Below, one piece after another: positions 16,701 to 46,057 of a stretch of DNA of 46,057 bases. Position 1 is the first letter of the stretch, and each line of letters begins with the position of its first letter. This DNA is from a virus: positions 1 to 46,057 of the IMG/VR virus record IMGVR_UViG_3300046804_002923. One strand, given 5' to 3'. Made by a program: the position numbers and the translations under genes. Under the pieces are notes generated by a model. The model was not told the origin of the DNA. It did not search any database and worked only from the letters and a program-made list of their open reading frames with translations.

Positions 16701-19700
16701 ATCTGTTCTACATCTACATCTCCTAAACCTTTCAATGAGTTTCTGATTTCGTCCTTAATTGCTTCTTGATCAGCTTCAAATGAACCTCCTTTCTGTAATG
16801 CTCCAGCTCTAGATAAAATTTGTGGCAAAGATGTCTCCAAGGTTCTCATACTTAAAGCTGTAGCTTCTAATCTTTTGCTGAATTCAGGATCAAATCCTAC
16901 TTTATCTCCAAGATTTTTAATAGCATCAGAAATTTCTTGATTAGAATAAGCACCCAAATTTGATAAAATATTTTCATTAAGTCTATCTGGTTTTTGTATA
17001 GATAAAGTATCTCCTAGTCTTGAACCCAAATTAATATCAAGTAGTCTAGAATTATTCGAAAATTCGGCAGATGCTCTGCTAACTGCCTCAGAGACATTCT
17101 TTAATGCCATATTAAAAATAGTTATTGCATTTGCTGCTTCCAATGCCGCTTGTTGAGAGGCTTTCTGTACTTCTATTCTTTTTTTCTCTGCCTGAACCTG
17201 TTCATTAGCGGCATTTGTAAATTCTTGCCAAGTTTTATCAATAAGATCTTGAAGTTCTGTTTCTTGCTGTTTTGTATCTTTACCCGCAGATTTCCTTGAT
17301 GTAATCTCTGCCATTTTTTGTGTAACTGCGGCACCGCCTTCTGCCACAGCAAAAGATCTTTTCACTTGTTCTAGAGTGCCAGCACCCAGACCTTCTATCT
17401 GTTGCTGTATTTGATCAAGGCTTAATCCTTGGGTCAATGCTTGGTTTATATATTTTTGTATACCAGCAGCACTAGTTTTGCCAATGCCAGCTAATTCGGA
17501 ACTCAATGCTTTTGTATCGACCTGATATCCTAATGCTGCACCAATATTAGTTACCATAGCATCATTTTGTTTTGTTCTTCTTATAGTTTCTTCAGCTTGA
17601 GCAGCAGATTTTACACCACTTAAAATTTCCCCCATGATTGGTTTAGTATCTTGTTTTCTATCTGTAGCATCTTGCAATCTTTCGAATGATTTATCCAAAC
17701 CAGAGGCTGATGTTTCCAATTGTTTCTGTTGTTTTTCTAATTGCTGTTGTTTAAGCGCATCGTTCCATCCTTTGACACCGGCTGTAACACCAGCTATTCC
17801 AGCAACTAAAAGTTTAAATGGTAGTGGTCCTGGAATTACAGAGAATGCTAATGTTGCTGCGCTACCAAAATTACTTAATGCACTACCTAATGGTCCTTCA
17901 ATATAACTTGTTAAACCCTGAAATGCGAATAATAAACCAGCTAATTCAAGAGTACCTCCTTGTCTTCCACCAGGGACTTGTGATCCTTGATTAGTGAAAT
18001 TTCTAGTTCCAGCTCTTACTCCACCTTGTCTGGCTGTTCCTGCTCCTGTTCTTGGAACACCAAATCTTGATAATCCACTACTTAGTCCTGTAAGAGACGA
18101 AGTTAATCTAGTTACTACAGGTAATAATCTATTAAATGCAGTTACTATTCCGCCAATAAAGAATCTCTGAACACCACCGCCACCAGCAAACTCTTGAATA
18201 TGACCAACAGCACCACCAGTATTAAAACCACTAATTTTATCTGCTTTATTTAATTGATGTAATTTTGCTTGTCCTATTCTTGATGCAGCCTTTTTATTAA
18301 TAACAAATTCACCAGGAGTTAATAAAGCCGGAACGGAATCTACATTACCACCTCTGGCGAATCTATTGAAAGTTACACCTTCAAATTTACCACTATTAAT
18401 ATCATTAATAATTTTTCTTTTAATAGAATCTATAGCGTCTGGAGTAGCTGTTCTTTTGGCGTCAGCTTTAATTAAACTATTAATTCCTTCACCGCTCTTA
18501 TCCGTAAACATTTTTGCCAATGATTCTCTTGAGGATGCAATATTTGGAAAATCGAAACTAGATTGATCACCAGCAAGTTTAGCTCCGGTTATTGCCTGTA
18601 CTACGCCTTCAAATACGAATCCTGATGTTGTTAATTGTGCATTTTTATCATCAGCTATTCTTTTAGCTCCTTTTTGTGCCTGAGATCTGTTAACGCTAAT
18701 GATAGGATTAGAAAGAGAATTTAGAATGGGATCAATAGATTTAAGAACAGTATTATATAATCCTTTTCTTGTATTTTCTGTTACTGTTGATGATACTCCG
18801 GATGCTTGTAAATCATTCTTACCAGGATAGTATGAAGAAATAGCTCCAGATATTGGTATTTCTTGTCCAGATACTAATAATTTATCTTTTTTAAGTCCAA
18901 CGCTAACTCTTTTTTGTGCTCTGTTTGGATCATATGTTTGAATTTCTTCTCTTGAATATCCAGCATCAAAAAGAGCATTTCTGGCCTCTCTAGTATCTAC
19001 AAATTTTCCATTTTTAATTAATTTACTTGTGTCAATTTTTTTTCTATTTTTACCAGTAGAAAATCCTAAAATTTTGGACTGTATATCACTTGTAGCTAAT
19101 GAGAATGCTTGTGATCTTGCGTCTGGAACTTTTGGGGCTTTTCCTAATTGTTTGAGTGCCGATAGATTCTTAATCAATGCTTCACCACCTATATTGACTG
19201 GTGATCTATCAGAACCTTCTGTTGGAGATAAAAAGAATGCCCCAATTTTAGATGGATCAACAACTATTCCACCTTTAGCATATCGATTCATATTTTTTAA
19301 ATTATTAACACCAATAGCTTGTACAGCTTTTTTACGAATAACAAACTCACCCGGCGTTAACATTGCGGATACAGTATCTCTACTACCGCTACCAGGAACT
19401 AAACCTCCTGTAGCAAATCGTCTTCCACCACCACGAGATATACCACCGGAAAACCCACTTATATATTGACCTAATGAACCTATACCACGCAAAGCTAATA
19501 TAGCTGTTATCGCTGGAAGCGCTTCTTTAGCCGCACTTGCAACAGCAATTAATCCACTAGCAAGTTTTAGCGAAATATCAGCAAATGTTTGAAAACTTTG
19601 GCTTTGACCAATATCTCTAATTAATGCAATAAATTCTTCGCGTACTCTAGTAATTTTAACAGAAAGTGCTTCTTGTGCTTTTGCCGCATCTGCCGCTAAT

Positions 19701-20950
19701 GATCCTGAACCTCTTTGAGCAACACCTAGCGCTTGTTGTGCCGTAGCAAACTGTTGAATAAGAGGAATAACTTTACCAATTTGTCTAAATCCACCGAGTT
19801 CTTCTACTATTTGTGAGAATCTCAAATCTCTTGGATCAAGAGTCTTTAAGCCTTCGCTCAGACGTCTAACAGCTTCGTATGGGCCAACGAATTTACCTTC
19901 AAGATCTGTTAATTCAATTCCAAATCCTTTAAGAGCTTCTATAGTAGCTCCTCGTTGGATACGAGTAAAAATAGTTCGTAAACCAGTAGCGATAGTTTCG
20001 GCGCTTTCACGAGTTGTAGCACGAACACTTGTAAATACTGCAATAAATTCATTCAATGCATCTTTACCCTGACTTACTCCTCTGCTTGCAGCAGCAAACA
20101 CACCACCAGTGCGCTGTACAGCAGTTATAATATCGCTAGCTTCCACAGCAAATCTAGCAGCAACAGCATTGATTGAACCTAGTGCCCCTTCTAGATCTTT
20201 AGCGCCTAGCCCAAACTGTCTCAATATAGCAATAGATCCTTCCACTGTTGATCCAAGATCATCAAAAGATGGCGCAAGTGCGGATTTTGCTAATGCTTCT
20301 AAAGCAACTCTAGTTTCACCGGCACTCAAACCAGCCTGGGCTAATGTAGTAGAAACATTTAATAAATCACTAGATGTAACACCAAGAGAAGTTGATAATC
20401 TGGTAATTTCATCTGCCAATGGTTTTAAACTTGATGCAGAAGATTCTGTTACTTGTTGTAGTCTAACAAATTCTTTATTAAAGTTGATAAACTCGCTTGA
20501 TGCGCTAGATATAGCGTTTATTAAAGCGTAAATTCCTCCTGTAGCCACACTAAAGGCAGCAAATCTTCTAATAGCTAAAGCAGACTGTCTGCCGAATTCC
20601 TCCATCTCTGATCTAGCTCCACCAATAGCATTCTGTGCATTTCTAGCTTGTGTATTTGCTTGATTAAAACCAGCATTGATAGTATTAGTAATATTACCTA
20701 TATTACTCCCTCTTGCACCAATATTATTTATCGCAGCAGCTAATGCTGCGGCATTATTCTGAGCATCTCTTAATGCAACACTAAGATTACGTACGTCACC
20801 AGTCAAAGACCGAATAGCCCCAGATGTAGCCTGATTAATATTTAAATTTAGACTAACAGTGGATAGTTGTCTTCTAATATTAGAAACAACTTGATTAAGG
20901 TTAGATGGACCTCTTAAATTAATTTCTGCGGTAAGATTAAATGCGGCCAT
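7763..20950 (-). CDS. Giant tape measure protein (4395 aa) with embedded kinase-like and metallopeptidase domains
   Basis: The start ATG at 20950 is preceded by GGAGG at good spacing. Residues about 130-470 form a TP901-type phage tail tape-measure core (helical, Ala- and Gln-rich, with GGVFAAASRGVSQGKDALNE-like helices). A hydrophobic stretch follows near residues 1000-1060. Six PGEFV repeats occur near residues 530, 880, 1830, 2455, 3545 and 4185. A kinase-like core spans about 2795-2960 and an HEGAH motif lies at 3236-3240. A proline-rich tract sits near 3500. Residues 2083-2480 and 3750-4210 are homologous copies. The protein sets tail length and may enter the host. By the usual proportion of about 1.5 angstrom per residue, the upper bound is a tail of roughly 650 nm, less if the folded domains do not act as ruler. 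Confidence 0.95.
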   Translation of the reverse strand: MAAFNLTAEINLRGPSNLNQVVSNIRRQLSTVSLNLNINQATSGAIRSLTGDVRNLSVALRDAQNNAAALAAAINNIGARGSNIGNITNTINAGFNQANTQARNAQNAIGGARSEMEEFGRQSALAIRRFAAFSVATGGIYALINAISSASSEFINFNKEFVRLQQVTESSASSLKPLADEITRLSTSLGVTSSDLLNVSTTLAQAGLSAGETRVALEALAKSALAPSFDDLGSTVEGSIAILRQFGLGAKDLEGALGSINAVAARFAVEASDIITAVQRTGGVFAAASRGVSQGKDALNEFIAVFTSVRATTRESAETIATGLRTIFTRIQRGATIEALKGFGIELTDLEGKFVGPYEAVRRLSEGLKTLDPRDLRFSQIVEELGGFRQIGKVIPLIQQFATAQQALGVAQRGSGSLAADAAKAQEALSVKITRVREEFIALIRDIGQSQSFQTFADISLKLASGLIAVASAAKEALPAITAILALRGIGSLGQYISGFSGGISRGGGRRFATGGLVPGSGSRDTVSAMLTPGEFVIRKKAVQAIGVNNLKNMNRYAKGGIVVDPSKIGAFFLSPTEGSDRSPVNIGGEALIKNLSALKQLGKAPKVPDARSQAFSLATSDIQSKILGFSTGKNRKKIDTSKLIKNGKFVDTREARNALFDAGYSREEIQTYDPNRAQKRVSVGLKKDKLLVSGQEIPISGAISSYYPGKNDLQASGVSSTVTENTRKGLYNTVLKSIDPILNSLSNPIISVNRSQAQKGAKRIADDKNAQLTTSGFVFEGVVQAITGAKLAGDQSSFDFPNIASSRESLAKMFTDKSGEGINSLIKADAKRTATPDAIDSIKRKIINDINSGKFEGVTFNRFARGGNVDSVPALLTPGEFVINKKAASRIGQAKLHQLNKADKISGFNTGGAVGHIQEFAGGGGVQRFFIGGIVTAFNRLLPVVTRLTSSLTGLSSGLSRFGVPRTGAGTARQGGVRAGTRNFTNQGSQVPGGRQGGTLELAGLLFAFQGLTSYIEGPLGSALSNFGSAATLAFSVIPGPLPFKLLVAGIAGVTAGVKGWNDALKQQQLEKQQKQLETSASGLDKSFERLQDATDRKQDTKPIMGEILSGVKSAAQAEETIRRTKQNDAMVTNIGAALGYQVDTKALSSELAGIGKTSAAGIQKYINQALTQGLSLDQIQQQIEGLGAGTLEQVKRSFAVAEGGAAVTQKMAEITSRKSAGKDTKQQETELQDLIDKTWQEFTNAANEQVQAEKKRIEVQKASQQAALEAANAITIFNMALKNVSEAVSRASAEFSNNSRLLDINLGSRLGDTLSIQKPDRLNENILSNLGAYSNQEISDAIKNLGDKVGFDPEFSKRLEATALSMRTLETSLPQILSRAGALQKGGSFEADQEAIKDEIRNSLKGLGDVDVEQIVNDTMSAIQDKRISTQETSLSEIANSSQTLQKILQAYNDQLKTAEQAQKAYNDMLAEVNTRMNQYVDALGRATDYQIKASDIRLNSEVQLREALKQEVSLMDMNAAFNQSIAKLTDVSAPNGQKLGATGDPIEIARRQDMLEAEKARIEKRRDQFAVNSPQWNQLNASLVKTTNEARNLAKAQEKLASDTTRASNAMSKIQSINQAREGARGQLFDVFKNINNPQWVQSFINSVGSYTRVLSGRGNLADLGPAIDALERRLQTLQPADADREREAFARQAAEVVARATGAGAGEAQNIVNQLLKLGGFGEDGALNQAIKEFRDANETAAKANEQIAARTKEGADYLYNKVIQAADDWVASVGKAGTLNIGGDANVAGGLNVGGGGRGIANAGGNRRGGVIYANDGALINFKPKGSDTVPAMLTPGEFVVNKKAAKNNIGLLKSINSGSSVYSNGGVVYARTGGSIMSDIRDTNSRLQKNIFIPSASFDVKDAIAQTFDFNSLLIELGNKIKDTKGLHDDSMWYSLLGAKPGELPYWANRNVSKMKLREFLNLKEYYRNFVDKTNNSALLSLIDVNNGYSAPNLPIEQPVAPTVELDPEQVKIFNEYLDFKKANIGARDAKVKLAASSFREYLKYNNIQNVDPAKFEPDTLPKPPEVPEKIPPAPKYYDELTYKEYLDKIISQGFSPVPPERGRFTTDAFYTKTKLGTGEVENEEDVMARLYTKYGDAYEQHVKNIKNKTFPERAIRDFPYRDKLIAGAASFGDFLKSEESLKLHGLDIADIVKENKAREEATVTGARVTQFDTRLVGPINGGPIGDVDINQIKQTATTLQEKTNEALKNVNEYAALITSNGNKDAVNISLSKVSSNYEQAIDALDQLSNLTIFRKNNKIHIPDNNDNNIDVQNIVNKLKSIKLTYDKPENKFKADDFSDATLMAFDAKYAQLFTQNPPVEGADKVPGKTTVAGMTETQKNNIYGRKSAASQYKDSLAYYIRERGKYNYSRRLKANRDAALNNKVGRYQTGGMVYASDGSLINFQPRGTDTVPAMLTPGEFVVNAKATKQNLGLLHAINNSNKSGTSYFSKGGFVPWKQKTFNPNYPGLDREELVKILEFKKESEARNKTEPVNNDTIIGLRSGYSINLKTDGSTHLKIPTEQELDSLDQERQNPYYNKAGTISQYGAPPDAGLLDAPFYERLLVAQQILNDIGEAFVAKGLSLPKTPVPVNMRLTRSQRKAQAAALARTRPYVQGTMPGVGIPGPYTLNPKIGPRFGGLKEQRDDAIFQLRKKIFDDAEKELNSPAYSGSERLKKDDPLTKKQIEDARDRKLENADLLYDQQQNYFASRQRSKDNFTLTSPDIKLPIDAVGAYDELLTEVKTLSAERLKALIERSELLGQGANSAAWSLTDNLALYLDKSTIPSSLSNLDLSIDPITGDRASFESQFGGRIARVSENGAWVGAIVGRVKGLSASNKKKFGRSESSTALEDTQALDLLSTLQGYSSDVFAQLFRDQLALAEKGYITGLSDSKLTNFVFGTNRIVPVDIGGPDFQTQPTFPTGKAFVETPASGYKDLILSDKWLSIMKNSMFGTHGLEQFGLMELLRKNPRMFLERLEGFKFFDYENDPRANSPEMLGQVAMEQYSKIKKIIEDRMAEGQKIAKQNSDQPPQLKNNPNTRLIEQNLQGQNIETDNPANIALPSFSIEDLRQRLSKYIAPQAKATPPQTIKDMFGRTIKLMNLDTEFDPVKLNQQLDKQITTDGIAITLAEMAKLIGVPLERIIPKDVVTVLEQQSKIKEGGSWSESIKSMRLAVPGDNLSDIGATGRIVFHEGAHAMLHRFGNDTYARYQDMISKRRNDIIQYMIKNSELFTGYPASTIDNGLQYILREIAGYGSTMGMRDLYKWGSLNKYLSSGTPLPLDANQIKQLQEYYKQRDQYETRASRQGENPPPPYPPVFDFEDLPDIFGGDLDRVGRIIPSSWTGQRAKGIFDIARLALYPDKGPTLPAVKAQYDALKTAGIVKSSYDQLLGMAREEFLTQMMQSVDMLDSIGVQLLGDILNQTLNSSNSRIFDVNAFYKRVKDLQDSRRAINTPPPLPRSGPPPLTAQRKGPPPLPVQRRQYGGLIYANNGRMIPFESRGTDTVPAMLTPGEFVVNAKATKQNLGLLKAINSGSSVGSKSYQKGGIIYAAGGIVVPDSVPDIDWIAIESLNSQLLAFANPDKGAKKHRQDPTKGPYPLIQKIGKALKTVPVGTDAPAGLVSSINELNNLKGEQIAAFSFDRFKTIIQSVGSTIGYARKYHAAKREAARIEAVKPKLVGSIDTTQSTAPSPTTETKSQPVAPITPEYYDELTYKEYLWKTIKDSWDKIKSGQGFSGPVPPDKSRFITPAFYYKKTGENQVTPEQKEKIEKAKGMAEEWKKEYEQWRQETEKRKAEIEKAGRKYVPDDERENTWLDNIPLWVAQYRGADGLTEEEIKKVFADAKISTSSNFRARATAFDVRNTSGIVGGGQKIDPKDVNQERVKAASTALLTEIANAERLRAEYKTEESKQGTDPALIKRSKEIFGESYTDAVDFLKELAKEQTIRSTGGTTFTTAEGAGAQTFNINTAVSRLKMLRDSYKSDILSAGIVKDGFSDSILDEFKVKPEVANPGGARDDMPRPSQAPIVKQTPPSPKAFKSKPVQGKVIRDSMSEEEKKSINGRKGIYSQYMDSIAHYKVMRGKFNYEYKLYRNKEASLSAKQGRRDAALSEQQQRRQAAGFASGGVVYAQNGSLINFQPRGTDTVPAMLTPGEFVVNRKATKNNLSLLQAINDNKMPYMASGGMVQRFQGGGMAEMSGGGAGGVSNISLDTSGLDSAFNKFSQYVESLRSVVDSFISGGQSLSGAINNLNGISTASQGLSAAASILRGSTEGLTSSISTFNTAIQNFEKSISNIPQSIGLQVTGSIPVTVSVTVNGGEGIAEELQQFKTQIYSDITRAINDATNGRLRVNLTAT
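8329..8453 (-). repeat. PGEFV repeat, copy 6 (tape measure)
   Basis: Encodes a GGVVYAQNGSLINF segment, then DTVPAMLTPGEFVVNRKAT and a helix NLSLLQAIND. It is the last of six copies and ends the second large duplicated block. Confidence 0.85.
8329..9703 (-). repeat. Tape-measure internal duplication, copy B (about residues 3750-4210)
   Basis: This block starts with YYDELTYKEYLWK and continues with VPPDKSRFITPAFY, RARATAFDVR, GFSDSILDEF, SINGRKGIYSQYMDSIAHY and finally a PGEFV repeat. Each marker has a counterpart in the same order in copy A at 13525-14704. It is recognisable at protein level only, so the duplication is old. Confidence 0.8.
10253..10375 (-). repeat. PGEFV repeat, copy 5 (tape measure)
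   Basis: Encodes GGLIYANNGRMIPFESRG, then DTVPAMLTPGEFVVNAKATK and NLGLLKAINSGSS. It follows the proline-rich tract. Confidence 0.85.
10376..10480 (-). other. Proline-rich tract in tape measure
   Basis: Three PPPL-type motifs (TPPPLPRSG, GPPPLTAQRK, GPPPLPVQRR) lie near residues 3490-3525, between the metallopeptidase-like domain and the fifth PGEFV repeat. Such a tract is usually an extended linker. The spaced PPPLPxxR motifs also resemble class II SH3 ligands, but no SH3 domain is seen in the window. Confidence 0.7.
10960..11590 (-). other. Metallopeptidase-like domain inside tape measure (HEGAH)
   Basis: Residues 3236-3240 read HEGAH within RIVFHEGAHAMLH, the zincin HExxH pattern preceded by hydrophobic residues. 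A candidate third zinc ligand is Glu3294 in YILREIAGYG, 58 residues after the first His, as in gluzincin-like families where a distant Glu completes the site. The domain is bounded by the kinase-like region and by the proline-rich tract. Peptidases in tape measures are usually thought to act on peptidoglycan or on the protein itself. HExxH with a distal Glu suggests a protein-cleaving enzyme, but substrate and activity are unproven. Confidence 0.6.
11950..12590 (-). other. Protein-kinase-like catalytic core inside tape measure
   Basis: Residues 2805-2814 (LGQGANSAAW) look like a glycine-rich nucleotide loop. Residues 2933-2955 contain GLSD-S-K-L-T-N-FVFG and then VPVDIGG. Asp2936, Lys2938, Asn2941 and Asp2953 have the spacing of the protein kinase catalytic loop and DFG motif (D-x-K-x-x-N, then about 12 residues, then D-x-G). 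The HRD histidine is replaced by Leu. The beta-3 lysine is not certain; Lys2826 in ALYLDK is one candidate. The fold could be a true kinase, an aminoglycoside-kinase-like enzyme, a pseudokinase or an AMPylator. Confidence 0.55.
13525..13645 (-). repeat. PGEFV repeat, copy 4 (tape measure)
   Basis: Encodes GGMVYASDGSLINFQPRG, then DTVPAMLTPGEFVVNAKATK and NLGLLHAINNSNK. It ends the first large duplicated block and is very close in sequence to copies 5 and 6. Confidence 0.85.
13525..14704 (-). repeat. Tape-measure internal duplication, copy A (about residues 2083-2480)
   Basis: The block starts YYDELTYKEYLDK and continues with VPPERGRFTTDAFY, GARVTQFDTR, DFSDATLMAFD, NIYGRKSAASQYKDSLAYY and a PGEFV repeat. 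The order and spacing parallel copy B at 8329-9703. Confidence 0.8.
15393..15515 (-). repeat. PGEFV repeat, copy 3 (tape measure)
   Basis: Encodes GGVIYANDGALINFKPKG, then DTVPAMLTPGEFVVNKKAAK and IGLLKSINSGSS. Confidence 0.85.
18263..18355 (-). repeat. PGEFV repeat, copy 2 (tape measure)
   Basis: A shorter copy encoding RFARGGNVDSVPALLTPGEF, then VINKKAASRIGQ. It lacks the YAxDGxLINF lead-in seen in copies 3-6. Confidence 0.85.
19310..19415 (-). repeat. PGEFV repeat, copy 1 (tape measure)
   Basis: Encodes GGLVPGSGSRDTVSAMLTPG, then EFVIRKKAVQAIG. It is the most divergent copy and closes the N-terminal tape-measure core. Confidence 0.85.
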
Positions 20951-38557: not shown

Positions 38558-40561
38558 CTATTTATAGATTCCATTATAAATGTCTTCATTAGCTGCTTCT
38601 GTAAACCATGCTGGTCCTTTATACATTTGACCAATATTTTTTACTGATTGAGAAGCATTTGTTCCAATTATATCATAGTTGATTGGGGCCATTGATCTAT
38701 TCATTTGTCTTGCTAACATATTAGCTATTAATAAAGCGCTATATCGGTCTTTTCTTAACTTGCCTTTTTTGCCATTTGGCATTTTTAGATCAGGAGTATC
38801 CCATCTATCTCTAGCTCCTGCTGCTGAACTTGTTTGTGTCATAATTATTGTAGTTAATTCATTTTTTAATTCTTCTATCTCTAAAATACATTCACTAAGA
38901 CTATCATATAATGGATTTAATTCATCTGTAATAATATTTTTATTTTCTTGGTCCATAGCGAAAACTAGACTTAACTCATCAAATCTTGGAAATAATATCA
39001 CTTTGTCTTCTAAATCTTTGCGTAAACCATGATTAGCTTGTGCTGTCCAGTCTGCTCTGGCAAACTGAACTAATTCAAGAATATGAAGTCCTTGTTGATC
39101 ATCAGTATCCTTTGGTTTATTTTCTATGACTGGCCATATTAGTATTTCACCATCTTGTAACTTATCAGGATCATGTAATGCTTCTTCTACGGCGATGCCG
39201 CCTCCCTGAGCATCCATACCAATACGCTCACACGGAAATACTTTCATTAAATTTCGTATTTTTCTAGCACAAAATCCATAAAAATCATGTTCTTGAACCA
39301 ATCCGGCCTTTTGTCTTTCTTTAAAATTACTTCTATTAGTAGACCAACAATATACTATTCTACTATGAGTAGGATGTGTCTCTAATACAACAATACTAAA
39401 ATTATCTTTTTCCGATGCTGGATCTATACCATAAACATATTTTAATTTTTCGTCTCCTTTGGTCTTTGCATCAAATAGTATTGGCTGTCCTCCTATGGTG
39501 ATAGGAGAGCTTTCTTTAGTAACACAACTTTCTATTAATGATCTTCTAAAAAAACCATCACTGTCTTCTGTGAAACAAGCAGCATACTCCATATTATATA
39601 TACCAGTATGAATAGTAGCTTTAGCTCGCGCTACTTGTTTGTCATCCATAAATCCTTTAGGAATCAATTCATATGGAATACGAATAATACTATAATCTTT
39701 CCAGTTAAAATTTTCTGGCACTTCACCGCCGAAAATTTCTTCTAATTTATGTTTCTCTCCTTTACTCTCTATAATTGATTTGTATCTTTTCCAATACGAG
39801 GCAAAATGTTTGAATGCATAGTCCGCTGTACCAGCAATTAGTGCCTGATTACCCATACTATGGCTTAGAATTTCTAGATCCTCATTCCATATACCAGCTT
39901 CTTTCATTGCTTGTTTTTTAGCTTCTTTTTTAACATTTTGTATTGGTGTTGCGCTTACCGCAGCGAAACCTGATACTACAGTTTCGTAGATATCCGGACT
40001 AATAGAGGCAAATTCGTCAGCTATAATTATATGAGCGCGAAGACCTCTAATCTTTTCACCAGTACCTAATGGGATAGCTATGGCCCAACTAGTACCAAGC
40101 CTCATGGTGCATCTATCAACATCTCGACGAGGACCATCATCATTGCCCGTAAATATACTTCGTATAATTGGACTATTTCTCCATAAGGTTTCCATGTATT
40201 CAAATATTACCTTACTCTGACGAAATGCTGCTCCAACAATAACAATTTTTGTACCAGGAACAAACAAACACTTCAGAAAAGCATACAATGCCAAGAGAAA
40301 ACTTTTACCAAAACCACGACTAGCAACGAACATGGGAAATGCTCGTACCCAAAATTCCTGTAATATAACTATTTGCATGGGATGAAGCTCAAGATCAAAA
40401 AGAAGTTTACAAGTTGCTCCAAAATATTCTGGATTTCTTAAAAGCTTAATTAAATGACGATCAGGATTTTCTATATCACTCTCAGAACGCCTAATCATAG
40501 GATTAGTCGGTATTATTAATTCGTCTATATTACCAAGTTTTAGCCATGCATCATCATACAT
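38558..40561 (-). CDS. Terminase large subunit
   Basis: This 667-residue DNA-packaging motor has an N-terminal ATPase. Walker A is SRGFGKS at residues 81-87, and Walker B with the catalytic Glu is IIIADE at 178-183. The motif SATP (about 202-206) probably begins the coupling region. The nuclease domain follows: GIDPA with Asp380, RIGMDAQGGG with Asp450, and a possible third acid in RKDRYSALLIAN near residue 632. The GMDAQGGG form is one I associate with terminases of uncultured marine phages. The gene overlaps the ERCC4-nuclease gene by 8 bases. Confidence 0.96.
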   Translation of the reverse strand: MYDDAWLKLGNIDELIIPTNPMIRRSESDIENPDRHLIKLLRNPEYFGATCKLLFDLELHPMQIVILQEFWVRAFPMFVASRGFGKSFLLALYAFLKCLFVPGTKIVIVGAAFRQSKVIFEYMETLWRNSPIIRSIFTGNDDGPRRDVDRCTMRLGTSWAIAIPLGTGEKIRGLRAHIIIADEFASISPDIYETVVSGFAAVSATPIQNVKKEAKKQAMKEAGIWNEDLEILSHSMGNQALIAGTADYAFKHFASYWKRYKSIIESKGEKHKLEEIFGGEVPENFNWKDYSIIRIPYELIPKGFMDDKQVARAKATIHTGIYNMEYAACFTEDSDGFFRRSLIESCVTKESSPITIGGQPILFDAKTKGDEKLKYVYGIDPASEKDNFSIVVLETHPTHSRIVYCWSTNRSNFKERQKAGLVQEHDFYGFCARKIRNLMKVFPCERIGMDAQGGGIAVEEALHDPDKLQDGEILIWPVIENKPKDTDDQQGLHILELVQFARADWTAQANHGLRKDLEDKVILFPRFDELSLVFAMDQENKNIITDELNPLYDSLSECILEIEELKNELTTIIMTQTSSAAGARDRWDTPDLKMPNGKKGKLRKDRYSALLIANMLARQMNRSMAPINYDIIGTNASQSVKNIGQMYKGPAWFTEAANEDIYNGIYK

Positions 40562-41310: not shown

Positions 41311-42128
41311 TGTTGTTTAAGAACCGACTCCGGAGTTAATAGAGGCATATCTAATCTATTATCTTGGTATGAATGGTATTCTTGTAGTTGTTCTTTAGCT
41401 TTGACGGATGCCATTTTAATAATCTCCATTTCCCGCCCCTCTTTTTCTCTTACATTTTCATCCTCTAGCATTCGTATTAATCCCACCCAACTACTTTTAC
41501 CATCTTCTATTCTTTTAATACGCTGTTCACGAGTAGCTTTTAAATCCTTGCTTATTTTCTGTTGCTCTGTTAAAAGCTTAGTATACTCATTAGTATAATT
41601 AGCAATACTATTGCGAGAAAATGTTAGTTGAGTTTCTAGATTAGCTAACTTAGGAATATCTCTTTGTTCGAGAGGTTTTGCGTATTCTTCGTCTACTAAT
41701 CGTTGTAACTTTTCGGTTTCGCTTATGTGACGTTTACGTTCTTTCATGCTACGATTAATCAAAATATCTATTGTGATAAATTGTTTAATCTGAAGTTCTT
41801 CGGCAGGAAGAACATCCTCACGAAATTGTTTCATTAAATTTATCCAAATGTTTTCAAAGTATTCTAGCTCGCCCGTTTCCTCGTCAAATTGTTTTTTGAT
41901 CTCTTGCCAGAATGTTTTGCTGTATAATTTTTGTTTTAGAATATCATCTTCCGCTACCTGATCAGCCGATTGTAAATTTTTAGTTTCACTTATGTATCGT
42001 TTGATAGGAGCCACATTACGATTAAGACTAGAAGCTATTTGCTCCGTTGTCATTTGACTGATATTATCACGAATAAATTTTTCTTCTTCGAGGCTTAATT
42101 GGCCTCTTTTTTTAGAGTTGGATGTCAT
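41307..42128 (-). CDS. Candidate small terminase subunit
   Basis: This 273-residue protein starts with a helix-turn-helix-like region (residues 10-50: LSLEEEKFIRDNISQMTTEQ, IASSLNRNVAPIKRYIS), which suits DNA binding. A long charged coiled-coil region spans about residues 140-240 and could oligomerise. It overlaps the sigma-like gene by 17 bases and the HNH gene by 4. Location two genes before the large terminase and the HTH plus coiled-coil plan fit a small terminase. A regulator of transcription cannot be ruled out. Confidence 0.68.
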   Translation of the reverse strand: MTSNSKKRGQLSLEEEKFIRDNISQMTTEQIASSLNRNVAPIKRYISETKNLQSADQVAEDDILKQKLYSKTFWQEIKKQFDEETGELEYFENIWINLMKQFREDVLPAEELQIKQFITIDILINRSMKERKRHISETEKLQRLVDEEYAKPLEQRDIPKLANLETQLTFSRNSIANYTNEYTKLLTEQQKISKDLKATREQRIKRIEDGKSSWVGLIRMLEDENVREKEGREMEIIKMASVKAKEQLQEYHSYQDNRLDMPLLTPESVLKQQ

Positions 42129-42732
42129 GATCTTTTAGTATGTTTTGAATTTCACTTATGAGTTTTTTAAGTTCGCTCTTGGGTACTTTGTTGCCGCCTT
42201 GTAGTTTGAGAAATATGTGGCGATTTTTAACACTAATATTTTTATTGATAATATTTAGTATTTCATTATTGCCTATACTATCTAGTAATGATGAAGATAC
42301 TAGTTCTTTAGTTGTTTCGGATAAACTATCCATTCCTATCGGTTTCATTATATTCTTTTTAGCATCGTTACGTTTGCTCCAACTCGCATATAATTCACAA
42401 TCATTCTGATTAGAGAATTCTGAACACGAAGAATTAGCTTTGTTGAAAAAAGGACAAGTTAAACAAGGTTTGTCGGGCCTTTGATAGTTATCTCGTTTGT
42501 AATTAAATAATCGATTTCTAACATGGGTCCAAAGAAAGTTTTCAAGAGGTCTTTCGTGATCGTAATTTTTAAGACCTTCTAGTGCGAATATAGCGGCCTG
42601 CTGTTTCATATCCTCGTGGGTATGATATCCAAATTTAAATTTATAACCTAATTTTTTACTAATTTTTTCCCATACTTCTAAGAATTGTTGATCACTTACT
42701 TTTTGGTTCTTCCTCGGTTTTTTCTTTTTCAT
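42112..42732 (-). CDS. Sigma-factor-like protein with inserted cysteine cluster
   Basis: The start is the ATG at 42732 (MKKKKPRKNQ), with AAAGGA about 9 bases upstream. A TTG one codon earlier is less likely. The 206-residue product has a sigma70 region-2-like segment (DMKQQAAIFALEGLKNYDHE, then RPLENFLWTHVRNRLFNYKR). A cysteine cluster follows (CLTCPFF, then CSEF and CELY), probably zinc-binding. The C-terminal part contains NRHIFLKLQGGNKVPKSELK, which could be a reduced region 4 helix-turn-helix. It is at the head of the late operon and may direct late transcription. Confidence 0.75.
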   Translation of the reverse strand: MKKKKPRKNQKVSDQQFLEVWEKISKKLGYKFKFGYHTHEDMKQQAAIFALEGLKNYDHERPLENFLWTHVRNRLFNYKRDNYQRPDKPCLTCPFFNKANSSCSEFSNQNDCELYASWSKRNDAKKNIMKPIGMDSLSETTKELVSSSLLDSIGNNEILNIINKNISVKNRHIFLKLQGGNKVPKSELKKLISEIQNILKDHDIQL

Positions 42733-42856
42733 CAAATAGATCCTTTAGTGGCTTGTCATTAGTATCATTTATTTCGTCGGCTGTTACAAGATTTTCACTA
42801 GCAATAACTTTTAATATAGAAGGAATAAAATTATCAATTTCTGTTTTTTTCATCAT
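42692..42856 (-). CDS. Small acidic protein, first gene of the late operon
   Basis: A 54-codon frame with paired ATG codons at 42856 and 42853 is preceded by AAGGGA. The product (MMKKTEIDNFIPSILKVIAS, then DEINDTNDKPLKDLFDEKEK) is helical and acidic. It overlaps the start of the sigma-like gene by about 40 bases, in another frame. No family is recognised. The ribosome-binding site, the promoter directly upstream and the AT-rich codon use like its neighbours support a real gene. The partner is possibly the sigma-like protein, by coupling. Confidence 0.6.
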   Translation of the reverse strand: MMKKTEIDNFIPSILKVIASENLVTADEINDTNDKPLKDLFDEKEKTEEEPKSK

Positions 42857-42938: not shown

Positions 42939-43163
42939 ATGTCAAAAACATATAAAAAGTGGACAAAAGAAGAGCTTGATTTTATCCTAAATAATTCTAA
43001 ATCTATGAAGGATGATGAGATTGCGGCCTATTTGAATAAGATTGATGGAACACGAGCTATTACGGTAGGAATGGTGCGACGTCAGAGGCGAAAACTGGCT
43101 ATTGTTAAACCAAGAGGTCGAAGACCATCAAATAACAATACAGCAGAAAGTACTCAGTCATGA
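42939..43163 (+). CDS. Small homeodomain-like (HTH) DNA-binding protein
   Basis: The ATG at 42939 is preceded by AGGAGA. The 74-residue basic product has three helices: WTKEELDFILNNSKSMKDDE, IAAYLNKI and a recognition-like TVGMVRRQRRKLAIVK, with a C-terminal RGRRPSN tail that may contact the minor groove. This is a SANT/homeodomain-like phage regulator plan similar to the N-terminus of the candidate small terminase. It faces the late operon across the divergent promoter pair and could be the switch protein. It overlaps the next gene by 4 bases (ATGA). Confidence 0.78.
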   Translation: MSKTYKKWTKEELDFILNNSKSMKDDEIAAYLNKIDGTRAITVGMVRRQRRKLAIVKPRGRRPSNNNTAESTQS

Positions 43164-43456
43164 GAAGTTTAGTTGCAATACTAGTATTATTTTTAATATC
43201 AGTATGTTCTAATCGAGGTATCGCAAATGAGTGGGTATATTTTGTTCAGCCGGTTCAGCCATTAGTGGTGGCGCCGGTAACGAACTATACTGTAACGTAT
43301 GCTCCTGTAGTTAAACAAGAAATTGTTTGGGTTCCTGTTTTGCAGCCTAAAACAGTAGTTTATCAGTGGGTTCCAACGTATAGGTGGGTTCCCGTTTATC
43401 CTGTGGATAATGATCCTTATCGACAATGGTTAGGATCCCGACACTATAGGTACTAA
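43160..43456 (+). CDS. Small exported protein rich in VPV/WVP motifs
   Basis: This 98-residue protein has a classical signal peptide (MRSLVAILVLFLISVCSNRG, then IANEW), possibly cleaved near residue 22. Cys16 does not sit in a good lipobox. The mature part repeats hydrophobic and aromatic Pro-Val motifs (VQPVQPLVVAPV, VWVPVLQPK, YQWVPTYRWVPVYPV) and ends DPYRQWLGSRHYRY. Such short VPV-rich exported proteins are ones I associate with planctomycetes, but the match is by style only. It is coupled to the regulator gene. In a phage it could alter the host envelope, for example in superinfection exclusion. Confidence 0.72.
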   Translation: MRSLVAILVLFLISVCSNRGIANEWVYFVQPVQPLVVAPVTNYTVTYAPVVKQEIVWVPVLQPKTVVYQWVPTYRWVPVYPVDNDPYRQWLGSRHYRY

Positions 43457-43487: not shown

Positions 43488-43650
43488 GTTTCTTATGTCT
43501 CGTAGTGTCTTGATTTGTAAAGATATGCTTAAGGTGGGGAAAGTCTACAATAAACTGGCCAATTATATGTAGAGTGCTTACTAAGTTTAGACCACCGCCG
43601 GGTTTTCACCTTTTTTCATAGTAATATGAAGAAAAACGAAAAAACCCCCC
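43488..43650 (+). other. Non-coding stretch before regulatory module 1
   Basis: No credible gene or ribosome-binding site is seen. It contains a purine-rich stretch and a C-run (AACCCCCC) just before the first inverted 27-bp element. Confidence 0.5.
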
Positions 43651-43930
43651 TAAGTTATTTGGTGGCAAGGGTTTACGATACGACTGCCCCGCAAAATTTG
43701 ACGTAAACCCTTATGCTGTAACGACTTACATCAAGTTTTTTCTACTGTAGCAAAATGCAATGCAAAATGCTACACTTTTTGCAAAATGCTACAGCCAATA
43801 TGGCAATGCCAATATGGCAGAATGATGTAACTCTAATAGCGACAACAACTTACAACAATTCGAGAAATTTTTTTTCTTTGGCACGGAGATTGCATTATAT
43901 AGAAGCATAAGAAAGAAAGAGAGAAAGAAA
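43651..43930 (+). promoter_or_regulatory. Regulatory module 1 (repeat elements plus sigma54-like promoter)
   Basis: In order: an inverted 27-bp element (43651-43677), a direct 30-bp copy (43700-43729), and GCAAAATGCTAC repeats with a TGTAGCA/TGCTACA dyad (43746-43793). Two GCCAATATGGCA copies follow (43794-43805, 43808-43819), then a further 30-bp element copy (43824-43853) and the promoter. The order is the same in modules 2 and 3. The upstream spacing suits enhancer sites of a sigma54 activator. Confidence 0.7.
43878..43894 (+). promoter_or_regulatory. Sigma54-like promoter 1
   Basis: TTGGCACGGAGATTGCA has GG at 43880-43881 and GC at 43892-43893, exactly 10 bases apart, matching the -24/-12 consensus. 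The alternative sigma70 reading (TTGGCA-N16-TAGAAG) is weaker, because it would make the conserved TGCAT part of a spacer. Confidence 0.6.
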
Positions 43931-44161
43931 ATGAGAAACCTGATCGTTCTGAATACTAAGGCTGAGTTGATTGAATTCCTGAACAATAACGATTTGAATA
44001 CGCTTGTGGATAACGTAGCGTTTGCTCTGGATTTGTTGGATATGGTAAGGGCTAACGATAACGTGTTGGAAATAAATGAAGATTTGGGTTTCTGCGATGA
44101 TGGTGGTTGGATTCAGATTGATGATATGGGATATGTTGTAGAGGAGTTCGCGGTTCCCTAA
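43931..44161 (+). CDS. Small acidic protein of unknown function
   Basis: This 76-residue protein starts at an ATG after a leader of A and G only (AAGAAAGAGAGAAAGAAA), with no standard GGAGG. The sequence has helical LNTKAELIEFLNNNDLNTLV, a hydrophobic VAFALDLLDMVRAN helix and an acidic end (GFCDDGGWIQIDDMGYVVEE). The single Cys and GGWIQIDD look like a small beta-hairpin. It is the first gene after module 1, and its stop is followed by a G-run hairpin. No family is recognised. Early-arm accessory protein by position. Confidence 0.78.
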   Translation: MRNLIVLNTKAELIEFLNNNDLNTLVDNVAFALDLLDMVRANDNVLEINEDLGFCDDGGWIQIDDMGYVVEEFAVP

Positions 44162-44170
44162 TAAGGGGGG

Positions 44171-44199
44171 TTGCGGCGGCGAGAAAAGTTTTCTAGAAT
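44171..44199 (+). promoter_or_regulatory. Sigma70-like promoter (TTGCGG-N17-TAGAAT)
   Basis: TTGCGG at 44171 and TAGAAT at 44194 have a 17-base spacer. The -10 box is followed by C, as in the two other promoters of this class at 44366 and 45194. Confidence 0.6.
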
Positions 44200-44225
44200 C
44201 AAAACACAAGAAAGAGAGAAAGAAA

Positions 44226-44369
44226 ATGAGAAACTTCTACAAGAATTCGGATGATGGATACGATTATCAGAAAGAAAATCGGAATGGCGAAGTTGACGAT
44301 TATGTTGCGTGGGTTCTGGAATTGAAGCGTAAGGAAAACGAAGAAAAGAAAATCCAGAATAACGCTTGA
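44226..44369 (+). CDS. Small charged protein, paralogue of the gene at 45017
   Basis: This 47-residue product shares DDGYDYxKENRNGEVDDYVA and then WVLELKRKE with the 57-residue protein at 45017-45190. The N-termini differ. It begins after a purine-only leader (CAAGAAAGAGAGAAAGAAAA). The sequence has an acidic DDG-EVDD patch and a basic-acidic helix, and no known domain. Conservation of most of the length between copies, with third-base changes between them, shows the frame is translated. The stop TGA overlaps the next promoter's TTGACA. Confidence 0.75.
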   Translation: MRNFYKNSDDGYDYQKENRNGEVDDYVAWVLELKRKENEEKKIQNNA

Positions 44370-44394
44370 CAAGCCGATCCATACTATATAGAAT
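44366..44394 (+). promoter_or_regulatory. Sigma70-like promoter (TTGACA-N17-TAGAAT)
   Basis: Perfect TTGACA at 44366-44371, 17 bases, then TAGAAT at 44389-44394, 24 bases upstream of the gene at 44419. Confidence 0.8.
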
Positions 44395-44418
44395 AGAATC
44401 AACACAAGGAAAAAGAAA

Positions 44419-44646
44419 ATGACCATCAAAGATATTCAAAACGCTAAGGCTCAGATTTGGGCGAACGAATCCCACGATTGCACGATCATATTCGACGGAA
44501 CGAACGAAGCGATTCGCTCGGAAGGTAAGTATTATGCGGAATGCGATTTGACCGGAGAACGTAAGCGATTGACCGCATCTAATTTTGAACGTGTTCTGAA
44601 CGATATGTTTTACGATTACTGCGTTGAGAAGGCGATCTGGATCTGA
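44419..44646 (+). CDS. Small protein of unknown function
   Basis: This 75-residue product (MTIKDIQNAKAQIWANESHD, then CTIIFDGTNEAIRSEGKYYA) is mixed alpha/beta, with a final helix NFERVLNDMFYDYCVEKAIW. Codons are less AT-rich than in the late genes. A perfect -35 box and -10 box lie upstream, and a purine leader (AAGGAAAAAGAAA) precedes the ATG. No family is recognised. It is probably an early accessory protein. Confidence 0.75.
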   Translation: MTIKDIQNAKAQIWANESHDCTIIFDGTNEAIRSEGKYYAECDLTGERKRLTASNFERVLNDMFYDYCVEKAIWI

Positions 44647-44738
44647 CCCCCACAAATAGGGATATACATATGTTCACTCTGTTTCTCGCATATGCCGCTC
44701 TTGCTCTTGTGACGATATAGTGTATGCATGTACACCTT
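44647..44738 (+). other. Non-coding gap with a C5/G3 hairpin
   Basis: Immediately after the stop codon, CCCCC (44647-44651) and GGG (44659-44661) could pair around an A-rich loop. No gene is seen. The gap of about 370 bases to the next gene is completed by module 2. Confidence 0.4.
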
Positions 44739-45016
44739 GACGTAAACCCTTGCGGCGTAACGACTTAGAGCAAATCGGCGCCGCCCGATTTGACGCAAAC
44801 CCTTATGCACCAACGACTTACGATGAGTTTTCTTAGCAAAGATTGTGCCAAAACATACTGTAGCAAAACGCCGAGCAAAATGCTACACTTTTTGCAAAAT
44901 GCTACACTTGCCATTTTGGCATATAGCGTATTTCCCGAGGAAAACACACAAAAAATATTTTTCCCTTTGGCACGGGAAGTGCATTTATATATGGCATAAG
45001 AAAGAGAGAGTTGAAA
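44739..45016 (+). promoter_or_regulatory. Regulatory module 2 (repeat elements plus sigma54-like promoter)
   Basis: Two direct 29-30-bp elements (44739-44767, 44792-44821) are separated by an AAATCGGCGCCGCCCGATTT palindrome. Next come GCAAAATGCTAC repeats (44859-44907), then TTGCCATTTTGGCA (44908-44921), then the promoter and a purine leader. It lacks the third element copy found in modules 1 and 3. Confidence 0.7.
44967..44983 (+). promoter_or_regulatory. Sigma54-like promoter 2
   Basis: TTGGCACGGGAAGTGCA has GG at 44969-44970 and GC at 44981-44982, 10 bases apart, followed by TTTATATA as in the other copies. Confidence 0.6.
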
Positions 45017-45190
45017 ATGAAAAAGTTCCGTTCCTACCGTTCCTACAGTTCTTCCTACCGTCCCTACGGTTCTGATGATGGTTATGATTATCATAAGGAA
45101 AACCGAAACGGAGAAGTTGACGATTATGTCGCTTGGGTTTTGGAATTGAAGCGTAAAGAGAAGGAAGAAAAGAAGAACCCCCAAGAGTAG
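45017..45190 (+). CDS. Small charged protein with Ser/Tyr/Arg-rich N-terminus, paralogue of the gene at 44226
   Basis: This 57-residue product begins MKKFRSYRSYSSSYRPYGS, a repetitive Ser-Tyr-Arg segment absent from its paralogue, and continues with the shared DDGYDY and GEVDDYVAWVLELKRKE block. It is the first gene after module 2. Its stop codon lies inside a perfect AACCCC/GGGGTT hairpin (45176-45195) that runs into the -35 box of the next promoter. No function is known. Confidence 0.75.
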   Translation: MKKFRSYRSYSSSYRPYGSDDGYDYHKENRNGEVDDYVAWVLELKRKEKEEKKNPQE

Positions 45191-45195
45191 GGGTT
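45176..45195 (+). repeat. Hairpin overlapping stop codon and next promoter
   Basis: AACCCC and GGGGTT pair with 6 bases around an 8-base loop containing the TAG stop. The right arm supplies the first bases of TTGACG. There is no T-run, so it is not a standard terminator. Confidence 0.6.
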
Positions 45196-45222
45196 GACGG
45201 GGCGGAAAAAGTTTCCTAGAAT
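45194..45222 (+). promoter_or_regulatory. Sigma70-like promoter (TTGACG-N17-TAGAAT)
   Basis: TTGACG at 45194-45199 and TAGAAT at 45217-45222 with a 17-base spacer, upstream of the gene at 45247. Confidence 0.75.
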
Positions 45223-45246
45223 CGTCAAATAAGAAAAAGGAAAATC

Positions 45247-45417
45247 ATGAACGAATTTGAGCGTATTATCGGGGATAGCATGATCGACGAGGATGGCCGG
45301 GAATGGATCGTGGACGATGCTACGGGTTGGGATCCTATCATGGGTGACGATGAGGAATGGATCGACACGGACGATGAGTGGCTCGACGATTTTCAAGGTG
45401 AGGAGGAATTCGCATGA
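45247..45417 (+). CDS. Very acidic small protein
   Basis: This 56-residue product is extremely rich in Asp and Glu, with repeated DEW and DDE motifs (MNEFERIIGDSMIDEDGREW, then WDPIMGDDEEWIDTDDEWLD). The negative charge and tryptophans are reminiscent of DNA-mimic inhibitors, but no homology is claimed. Its ATG follows AAGGAAAATC, and its stop overlaps the next ATG by 4 bases (ATGA), so the two products are probably made in fixed ratio. Confidence 0.72.
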   Translation: MNEFERIIGDSMIDEDGREWIVDDATGWDPIMGDDEEWIDTDDEWLDDFQGEEEFA

Positions 45418-45554
45418 TGATTCTGGAAAGCGATTGCTGCTATGCTCCCGTGATCGCAGGAGACATTTGTACACGTTGCAAGGAACACTGCGAACCCGTT
45501 TGGGTGGAAACTGAGGAAGATAACGGGCAACCCGGATTCATTCCGGGAACCTAA
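45414..45554 (+). CDS. Small zinc-binding (Cys-rich) protein
   Basis: This 46-residue product (start ATG at 45414, or the adjacent ATG at 45417) has CC at residues 8-9 and CTRCKEHC at 19-26. It therefore fits a C-C, then C-x2-C-x2-H-C zinc knuckle like the very common small phage proteins with CxxCxEHxxxE. Acidic residues follow (WVETEEDNG). It is coupled to the acidic protein by a 4-base overlap. The role of this family is unknown to me. Confidence 0.78.
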   Translation: MMILESDCCYAPVIAGDICTRCKEHCEPVWVETEEDNGQPGFIPGT

Positions 45555-45555
45555 C

Positions 45556-45598
45556 CCCACCAAGGTAGGGATAACCATACTCTCCCCCACTAGGGGGG
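45556..45598 (+). repeat. Two short C/G hairpins after the zinc-protein gene
   Basis: CCC and GGG (45556-45570), then CCCCC-ACTA-GGGGG (45584-45597). Each is short but strong and neither has a T-run. Confidence 0.5.
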
Positions 45599-45629
45599 TA
45601 TACATCCGTACACTACTGTACAACGATTA

Positions 45630-45951
45630 GACGTAAACCCTTACGATATAAGCACTTAGAATAAATTGGCGGGGCAAAATTTGACGTAACTACTTATGCA
45701 CCAACAACTTACAGCAAGTTTTGACGCAAATGGTGTGCCGTTCGCCAAAAATCCCCCATAATGAGGGGGTGTAGCAAAATGCATTGCAAAATGCTACACT
45801 GTGACGCAAAATGATACGGCCATATTGGCAGTGCCAAAATGACAGAAAGTTGTAAAGTGTTGCGGCACAACGACTTAGGAAAAAAGAAAAATATTTTTGG
45901 GTTTGGCACAGTAGATGCATTATATAGAGATATAAGAAAGAGAGAAAGAAA
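45630..45951 (+). promoter_or_regulatory. Regulatory module 3 (repeat elements plus sigma54-like promoter)
   Basis: Elements at 45630-45658 and 45683-45712, then a CCCCC/GGGGG hairpin (45753-45769), GCAAAATGCTAC repeats (45770-45819), GGCCATATTGGCA (45818-45830), a further element (45852-45877) and the promoter. It is about 40 bases longer than the others because of the added hairpin. The spacer GGCGGGGCAAAATTTGACG matches module 1 (TGCCCCGCAAAATTTGACG). Confidence 0.7.
45903..45919 (+). promoter_or_regulatory. Sigma54-like promoter 3
   Basis: TTGGCACAGTAGATGCA has GG at 45905-45906 and GC at 45917-45918, again 10 bases apart, then TTATATAGA. Confidence 0.6.
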
Positions 45952-46057
45952 ATGAAAAAGAAAATTGCAAAACAACTCGAAAAAATTGGTGCATCGCTCG
46001 TTTCGACTCGGTTCGGAATCCTTGGTGATTGGATGGTGGTAACGGCTACAGGAAAAG
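45952..46057 (+). CDS. Partial small protein (3' end beyond window)
   Basis: An ATG at 45952 after the purine leader AAGAAAGAGAGAAAGAAA opens a frame of 35 codons that runs to the window edge (MKKKIAKQLEKIGASLVSTR, then FGILGDWMVVTATGK). The promoter, leader and start resemble those of the genes at 43931 and 45017. The product cannot be identified from this fragment. Confidence 0.65.
   Translation, partial: MKKKIAKQLEKIGASLVSTRFGILGDWMVVTATGK

Follow-up and report, generated by a model that had tools for sequence, protein, structure and literature searches.

The 46,057-base virus record IMGVR_UViG_3300046804_002923 (GC 0.345), analysed here over its full length and called the window, covers part of the genome of an uncultured tailed phage. 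Three of its spacers, each ahead of small genes, carry a common ordered control block. Judged from its sequence, each block is probably an enhancer-dependent sigma-54 promoter cassette worked by host sigma-54 and a host activator. The blocks lie at 43650-43930, 44742-45016, and 45633-45951 and are 275–319 bases long. Each runs in the same order through two 27-bp imperfect palindromes (27-mers), an array of 17-bp palindromes (TGTWGCA-AAA-TGCWACA; the TGTWGCAAAATGCWACA array) placed as upstream activator sites (UAS), TGGCA palindromes, a sigma-54 promoter, TATATA, and a purine leader. The promoter in all three is TGGCAC-N6-TGC, with GG-N10-GC spacing, and matches the published sigma-54 consensus TGGCACN5-7TTGCT, whose TGGCAC and TGC boxes stand 5–7 nt apart (PMC12316311). 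UAS cores in the window start 74–130 bp upstream of the -24 box. The elements of the three modules are as follows, with a strand given where one was assigned.

43650-43676: module 1, 27-mer a, flipped orientation
43703-43729: module 1, 27-mer b, 53 bp past a
43746-43774, plus: module 1, enhancer sites TGTAGCAAAATGC-AAT-GCAAAATGCTACA
43781-43793, plus: module 1, third enhancer site GCAAAATGCTACA
43794-43819: module 1, TGGCA palindromes GCCAATATGGCA and TGCCAATATGGCA
43827-43853: module 1, degenerate 27-mer at -52 from the promoter
43879-43894, plus: module 1, sigma-54 promoter TGGCACGGAGATTGCA, then TATATAG and purine leader
44742-44768: module 2, 27-mer a
44795-44821: module 2, 27-mer b, 53 bp past a
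44836-44850, minus: module 2, divergent sigma-54 promoter TGGCACAATCTTTGC
44859-44906, plus: module 2, enhancer array, TGTAGCAAAACGC-CGA-GCAAAATGCTACA and GCAAAATGCTACA
44909-44921: module 2, palindrome TGCCATTTTGGCA
44968-44983, plus: module 2, sigma-54 promoter TGGCACGGGAAGTGCA, then TATATA and purine leader
45633-45659: module 3, 27-mer a
45686-45712: module 3, 27-mer b, 53 bp past a
45726-45740, minus: module 3, divergent sigma-54-like promoter CGGCACACCATTTGC
45770-45816, plus: module 3, enhancer array, TGTAGCAAAATGC-ATT-GCAAAATGCTACA and GCAAAATGATAC
45832-45844: module 3, palindrome TGCCAAAATGACA
45852-45878: module 3, 27-mer at -52 from the promoter
45904-45919, plus: module 3, sigma-54 promoter TGGCACAGTAGATGCA, then TATATA and purine leader

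An earlier note on this DNA, made from the letters alone, had described three spacers with the same ordered parts and a regulatory block copied in front of differing genes. All parts were found in the order it gave, and alignment of the three modules yielded a mean column identity of 74% over 355 columns. Three-way identity is highest in four places, namely the 27-mers, the array of GCAAAATGC, the leader, and the promoter at -24/-12; the alignment thus spans several elements, and similarity is not limited to one short motif. The pattern TTGGCAY-N6-TGCW followed by TATATA has three sites in the 46-kb window, all within the three spacers, and none in 100 dinucleotide shuffles. Likewise, all seven exact GCAAAATGC cores in the window fall inside the modules (0.53 expected). 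Some details of the parts list required correction: the overall order stands, while the first 27-mer of module 1 is flipped and module 2 is without a 27-mer at -52. The TGGCA palindromes are present, numbering two, one, and two in modules 1–3, with one of module 3 imperfect. Modules 2 and 3 also hold divergent sigma-54-like promoters that the note had not listed, and what it called a -24/-12-like promoter can be named as the sigma-54 consensus accompanied by upstream activator-type sites.

A search of related genomes for further copies showed that related phages carry the block, and 54 dereplicated sense modules were collected using TGGYAY-N6-YGC, an upstream GCAAAATGC-type core, and a downstream TATA stretch. 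These collecting conditions are present by construction, so the set is no independent promoter test. Beyond them, C occupies the fourth base in 54/54 modules, T precedes GC in 52/54, and A or T follows GC in 54/54. Other features outside the construction are a T-rich stretch on the upstream side, how many UAS cores occur and how they are spaced (mostly 12, 19–21, 33, or 42–44 bp), the leader, and the position of the ATG, which usually lies at about +49, after the purine leader. In the fuller layout, some modules have a divergent sigma-54 promoter between the second 27-mer and the enhancer array, and many have a third 27-mer at -52, then an A/T tract, before the promoter. TGGCA palindromes were seen in the window and some relatives. 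A divergent second sigma-54 promoter occurs in 20 of the 54 modules, against a null mean of 0.41 from shuffles.

The 27-mer has the form GTAANNNNTT-N7-AANNNNTTAC, an inverted repeat with a 10-7-10 layout that occurs in both orientations. The 54 modules contain 99 of them (3.3 in shuffles), including 33 pairs at exactly 53 bp, and the -52 copy and the UAS hold recurrent positions relative to the promoter. The 27-mers most probably serve as operators for a second regulator, which would tune looping or repress. Their mismatches tend to be A-C when read on the sense strand and G-U on the opposite one, which had prompted a reading as an RNA hairpin on a divergent transcript. That reading was dropped as the main one given the two orientations and the fixed 53-bp phase. 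A search for known RNAs in Rfam returned no match.

The association of enhancer and promoter was also seen when the enhancer motif was used alone. This retrieved 13 further stretches, and among the 12 places found in this way with enough sequence (about five distinct sequences), 11 have TGGCAY-N6-TGC about 100 bp downstream and the remaining one has the variant TGGTAC-N6-CGC. The combined enhancer and promoter pattern occurs in 68 stretches of the viral collection versus five in 257 Gb from 84,980 genomes, and one of those five is a phage contig. That one, in a Flavobacteriales metagenome-assembled genome, was rejected as host evidence, being a phage contig in the bin, and those in Spirochaetales, Saccharibacter, and Halobacteriovoraceae were single UAS matches, taken as chance. 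One stretch retrieved by the promoter pattern alone (G014) has no UAS. Known phages gave one weak 35-base match and known plasmids none.

Homologs of the window's terminase (54%–77% identity) were identified in 32 of the 35 records tested, which indicates a single phage family. In the relatives compared, the array and the terminase gene are on opposite strands, separated by a few kb. In one relative of 180 kb, a series of small plus-strand genes starts at the array; this phage has DNA polymerase, helicase, recombinase, and ribonucleotide reductase genes of its own. The terminase matches of G036, G039, G042, G048, and G049 each contain one in-frame TAA, possibly reflecting recoding, an insert, or an end effect.

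The same site is also present in an unrelated phage. G055/L095 (GC 0.56) has its own HK97-type capsid, portal, and terminase, and carries the same UAS array and promoter (TGGCACGGGGGTTGCA) at the corresponding position, with its minus-strand terminase on one side and plus-strand genes, one of them for a DNA clamp, on the other. This phage is the strongest support for a site determined by the host. Separately, in the region 5344-5464 of L177 (65% GC, 182 kb), GCATTTTGCTACA is followed at a distance of about 100 bp by two consensus sigma-54 boxes, and this contig may be a further unrelated user of the switch.

Comparisons between relatives revealed patterns of exchange between blocks and genes. 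Relatives of the first gene of cassette 1 sit behind modules of G001, G012, G016, and G019. Between G012 and G001, the first cassette gene is 92%–100% identical (40-bp bins) and the preceding block 35%–60%. The reverse is seen between G008 and G019, where the blocks are 75%–100% identical and the genes behind them unrelated, and likewise between G001 and G008, with similar blocks and unrelated genes. The change-over in identity falls within the leader, near +40. For module 2 of the window, the nearest counterpart (79%) is a module of G016, which fronts a gene for a cysteine-rich protein, whereas the window module fronts an SDDGYDY gene. Mosaics of gene and block with a breakpoint at the leader indicate that blocks and genes are separable units and that promoter cassettes are exchanged between genes. 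The earlier proposal of a copied block providing shared control of different cassettes is therefore upheld across related phages.

Sigma-54 promoters require an activator bound upstream. No match to the activator domain PF00158 (Sigma54_activat) was found in 64 distinct virus records, to the sigma-54 core-binding domain PF04963 in 20, or to the sigma-54 DNA-binding domain PF04552 and PF02954 (HTH_8) in 25; controls were positive. Since these searches of phage records detected neither RpoN nor an activator, the modules are most likely acted on by the sigma-54 and an activator of the host. A hint at the host comes from DUF1501 proteins (PMC4452313), which were identified at E < 1e-60 in 5 of 25 large records. 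From these genes we would guess, with a little more confidence than doubt, that the host is planctomycete-like, and the host hints point to Planctomycetes-Verrucomicrobia-Chlamydiae (PVC) bacteria.

Several observations weigh against the reading that host sigma-54 and a host activator work the modules. The records are possibly fragments, and an activator may lie in an unassembled part or be too divergent for Pfam. No host genome sharing the UAS array came out of a search that covered Bacteroidota (none of 394 other genomes) and Bdellovibrionota (7 of 290, versus one for a control pattern) but not Planctomycetota. DUF1501 proteins are encoded by 2 of 14 control genomes as well, and the window has none. 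In many of the sense promoters, TTGC departs from the consensus at its first T.

The best-surviving alternative keeps the sigma-54 promoters and makes the activator a phage product, encoded outside the fragments or unrecognised, with the cassettes forming a viral regulon. The concentration of the pattern in viral contigs and its near absence from the 84,980 genomes are as expected if the pattern is not in use in any common host operon. We nevertheless consider a phage-made activator unlikely, since neither Sigma54_activat nor HTH_8 was matched in the set of phage records searched, some of them 120–223 kb long and from many members of one family, and since an unrelated phage uses the same site. 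Far less probable is that the -24/-12 motif is read by a phage sigma-like protein and resembles sigma-54 sites by coincidence. A 207-residue candidate (42112-42735, minus strand) has weak matches to sigma-70 region 2 and to PHROG sigma factors, and its homologs adjoin the modules in relatives, where the gene has been kept. The motif, however, equals the sigma-54 consensus in both sequence and spacing and is accompanied by phased upstream sites that sigma-70-type factors do not need, and G055 has the same promoter with no homolog of this protein in the stretches tested. The 207-residue protein may instead read other promoters of the window phage. It is equally improbable that the 27-mers and arrays, instead of controlling transcription, serve replication, packaging, or site-specific recombination (as iterons or recombinase cores) and so spread the cassettes, as many phased 10-7-10 inverted repeats per cassette and the exchange of cassettes might suggest, since exchange breakpoints lie in the leader near the start codon, away from the 27-mers, and the -52 copy and UAS keep their places relative to the promoter.

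In the favoured account, what can be read directly from the sequences is the set of parts with its order and spacing, how these are conserved in the family, where the mosaic breakpoints lie, and that the phage records searched gave no detected RpoN or activator gene. The proposed mechanism predicts from them that host RNA polymerase with host sigma-54 would bind the TGGCAC-N6-TGC box as a closed complex, and that a host enhancer-binding protein (an AAA+ activator) would bind the array of 17-bp palindromes roughly 75–150 bp upstream. DNA looping by the bound activator would then open the promoter, and the small-gene operon would be on when the host activator is active. The same array would also serve the divergent sigma-54 promoter in about a third of modules. 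The 27-bp palindromes, two of which are separated by 53 bp, or about five helical turns, with a third in many modules at -52, would be operators of a second regulator, and recombination at the shared leader would exchange blocks and genes as cassettes. The action of sigma-54 and a host activator is itself a putative part of this scheme, as are the activator's identity, what the 27-mers do, when the genes are expressed, and which host is infected. A broader version, for which we judge the case to be evenly balanced, is that a family of large phages infecting planctomycete-like hosts runs part of its expression through a host sigma-54 activator, by way of interchangeable, partly bidirectional cassettes, so that the phage reads the physiological or infection-stress state of the host, and that unrelated phages converged on this switch independently.

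The genes behind the three modules are small and arranged as follows.

43931-44161, plus: cassette 1 first gene, 76 residues, MRNLIVLNT family
44226-44369, plus: cassette 1 second gene, 47 residues, paralogue of the cassette 2 first gene (family D2, 85% over 110 nt)
44419-44646, plus: cassette 1 third gene, 75 residues
45017-45190, plus: cassette 2 first gene, 57 residues, SDDGYDY family
45247-45417, plus: cassette 2 second gene, 56 residues
45414-45554, plus: cassette 2 third gene, 46 residues, cysteine-rich (zinc-ribbon-like)
45952-46057, plus: cassette 3 first gene, cut by the contig end

Ten of the small cassette proteins were compared with PHROG and none had a match. A possible frame for a 16-residue hydrophobic peptide (MFTLFLAYAALALVTI) lies at the end of cassette 1 (44671-44721, plus). 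Sigma-70-like promoters of the form TTGNNN-N17-TAGAAT occur just 5' of genes within the cassettes at 44171-44199, 44366-44394, and 45194-45222, the first read by eye and the other two computed. These could form a second promoter layer beneath the sigma-54 one.

The terminase and structural cluster is on the minus strand and the cassettes are on the plus strand, where they head a run of small genes. Small plus-strand genes begin at 42.9 kb. By position alone, the cassette genes are suggested to be early or accessory, as the earlier note had called them. The terminase large subunit is encoded at 38558-40561 on the minus strand, which also holds genes for an ERCC4-type nuclease, an HNH protein, and structural-type proteins. 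The structural region includes one open frame of 4395 residues (7763-20950, minus). A small protein encoded at 43160-43456 (plus) has a signal-peptide-like start, is rich in Val, Pro, and Tyr, and may resemble secreted planctomycete proteins.

Because a sigma-54 promoter depends on an ATP-driven activator that responds to a signal, a virus using such promoters ties its genes to a host signal rather than to constitutive transcription. The system offers a handle on how phages sense the state of their host and on how small phage genes evolve by promoter swapping, and the common site provides a route to the host activator that is exploited.

Repeated early promoters of phages also precede small, variable genes, but they usually belong to the sigma-70 type or are transcribed by a phage polymerase, whereas the modules described here are enhancer-type sigma-54 promoters in a control block of 275–319 bp. 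The Vibrio qrr genes likewise have a sigma-54 promoter with one or two LuxO palindromes about 90–120 bp upstream (PMC11443567). The LuxO site is TTGCAW3TGCAA, and one qrr start has such sites at about -119 and -89 (PMC11443567); its core GCAW3TGC is identical to the phage enhancer core, and the outer TGT/ACA bases differ. By analogy, this core would show the kind of protein to be expected and not the identity of the activator. Whereas qrr promoters are chromosomal and drive small RNAs, the phage blocks are viral, drive small protein genes, and have extra 27-mers and divergent promoters, with no activator gene found in the phage. The Escherichia coli psp operon (PspF, IHF, and sigma-54) also combines UAS, an intervening DNA-bending site, and a sigma-54 promoter, and responds to infection by filamentous phage (PMC11720261), but it is a host response operon with other UAS, and the blocks here are viral promoters. 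A link between phage and sigma-54 was likewise proposed for a putative sigma-54-like protein of Pectobacterium phage Q19, based on a weak HHpred match (probability 94%, E 0.67); the available part of that report describes no sigma-54 promoters or UAS (PMC7693777). A full-text search, weak in that most subscription journals are outside its coverage, found no paper on a phage family with enhancer-dependent sigma-54 promoters. The parts, sigma-54 and upstream activator sites, are already known; their viral, multiplied, and exchanged setting is new.

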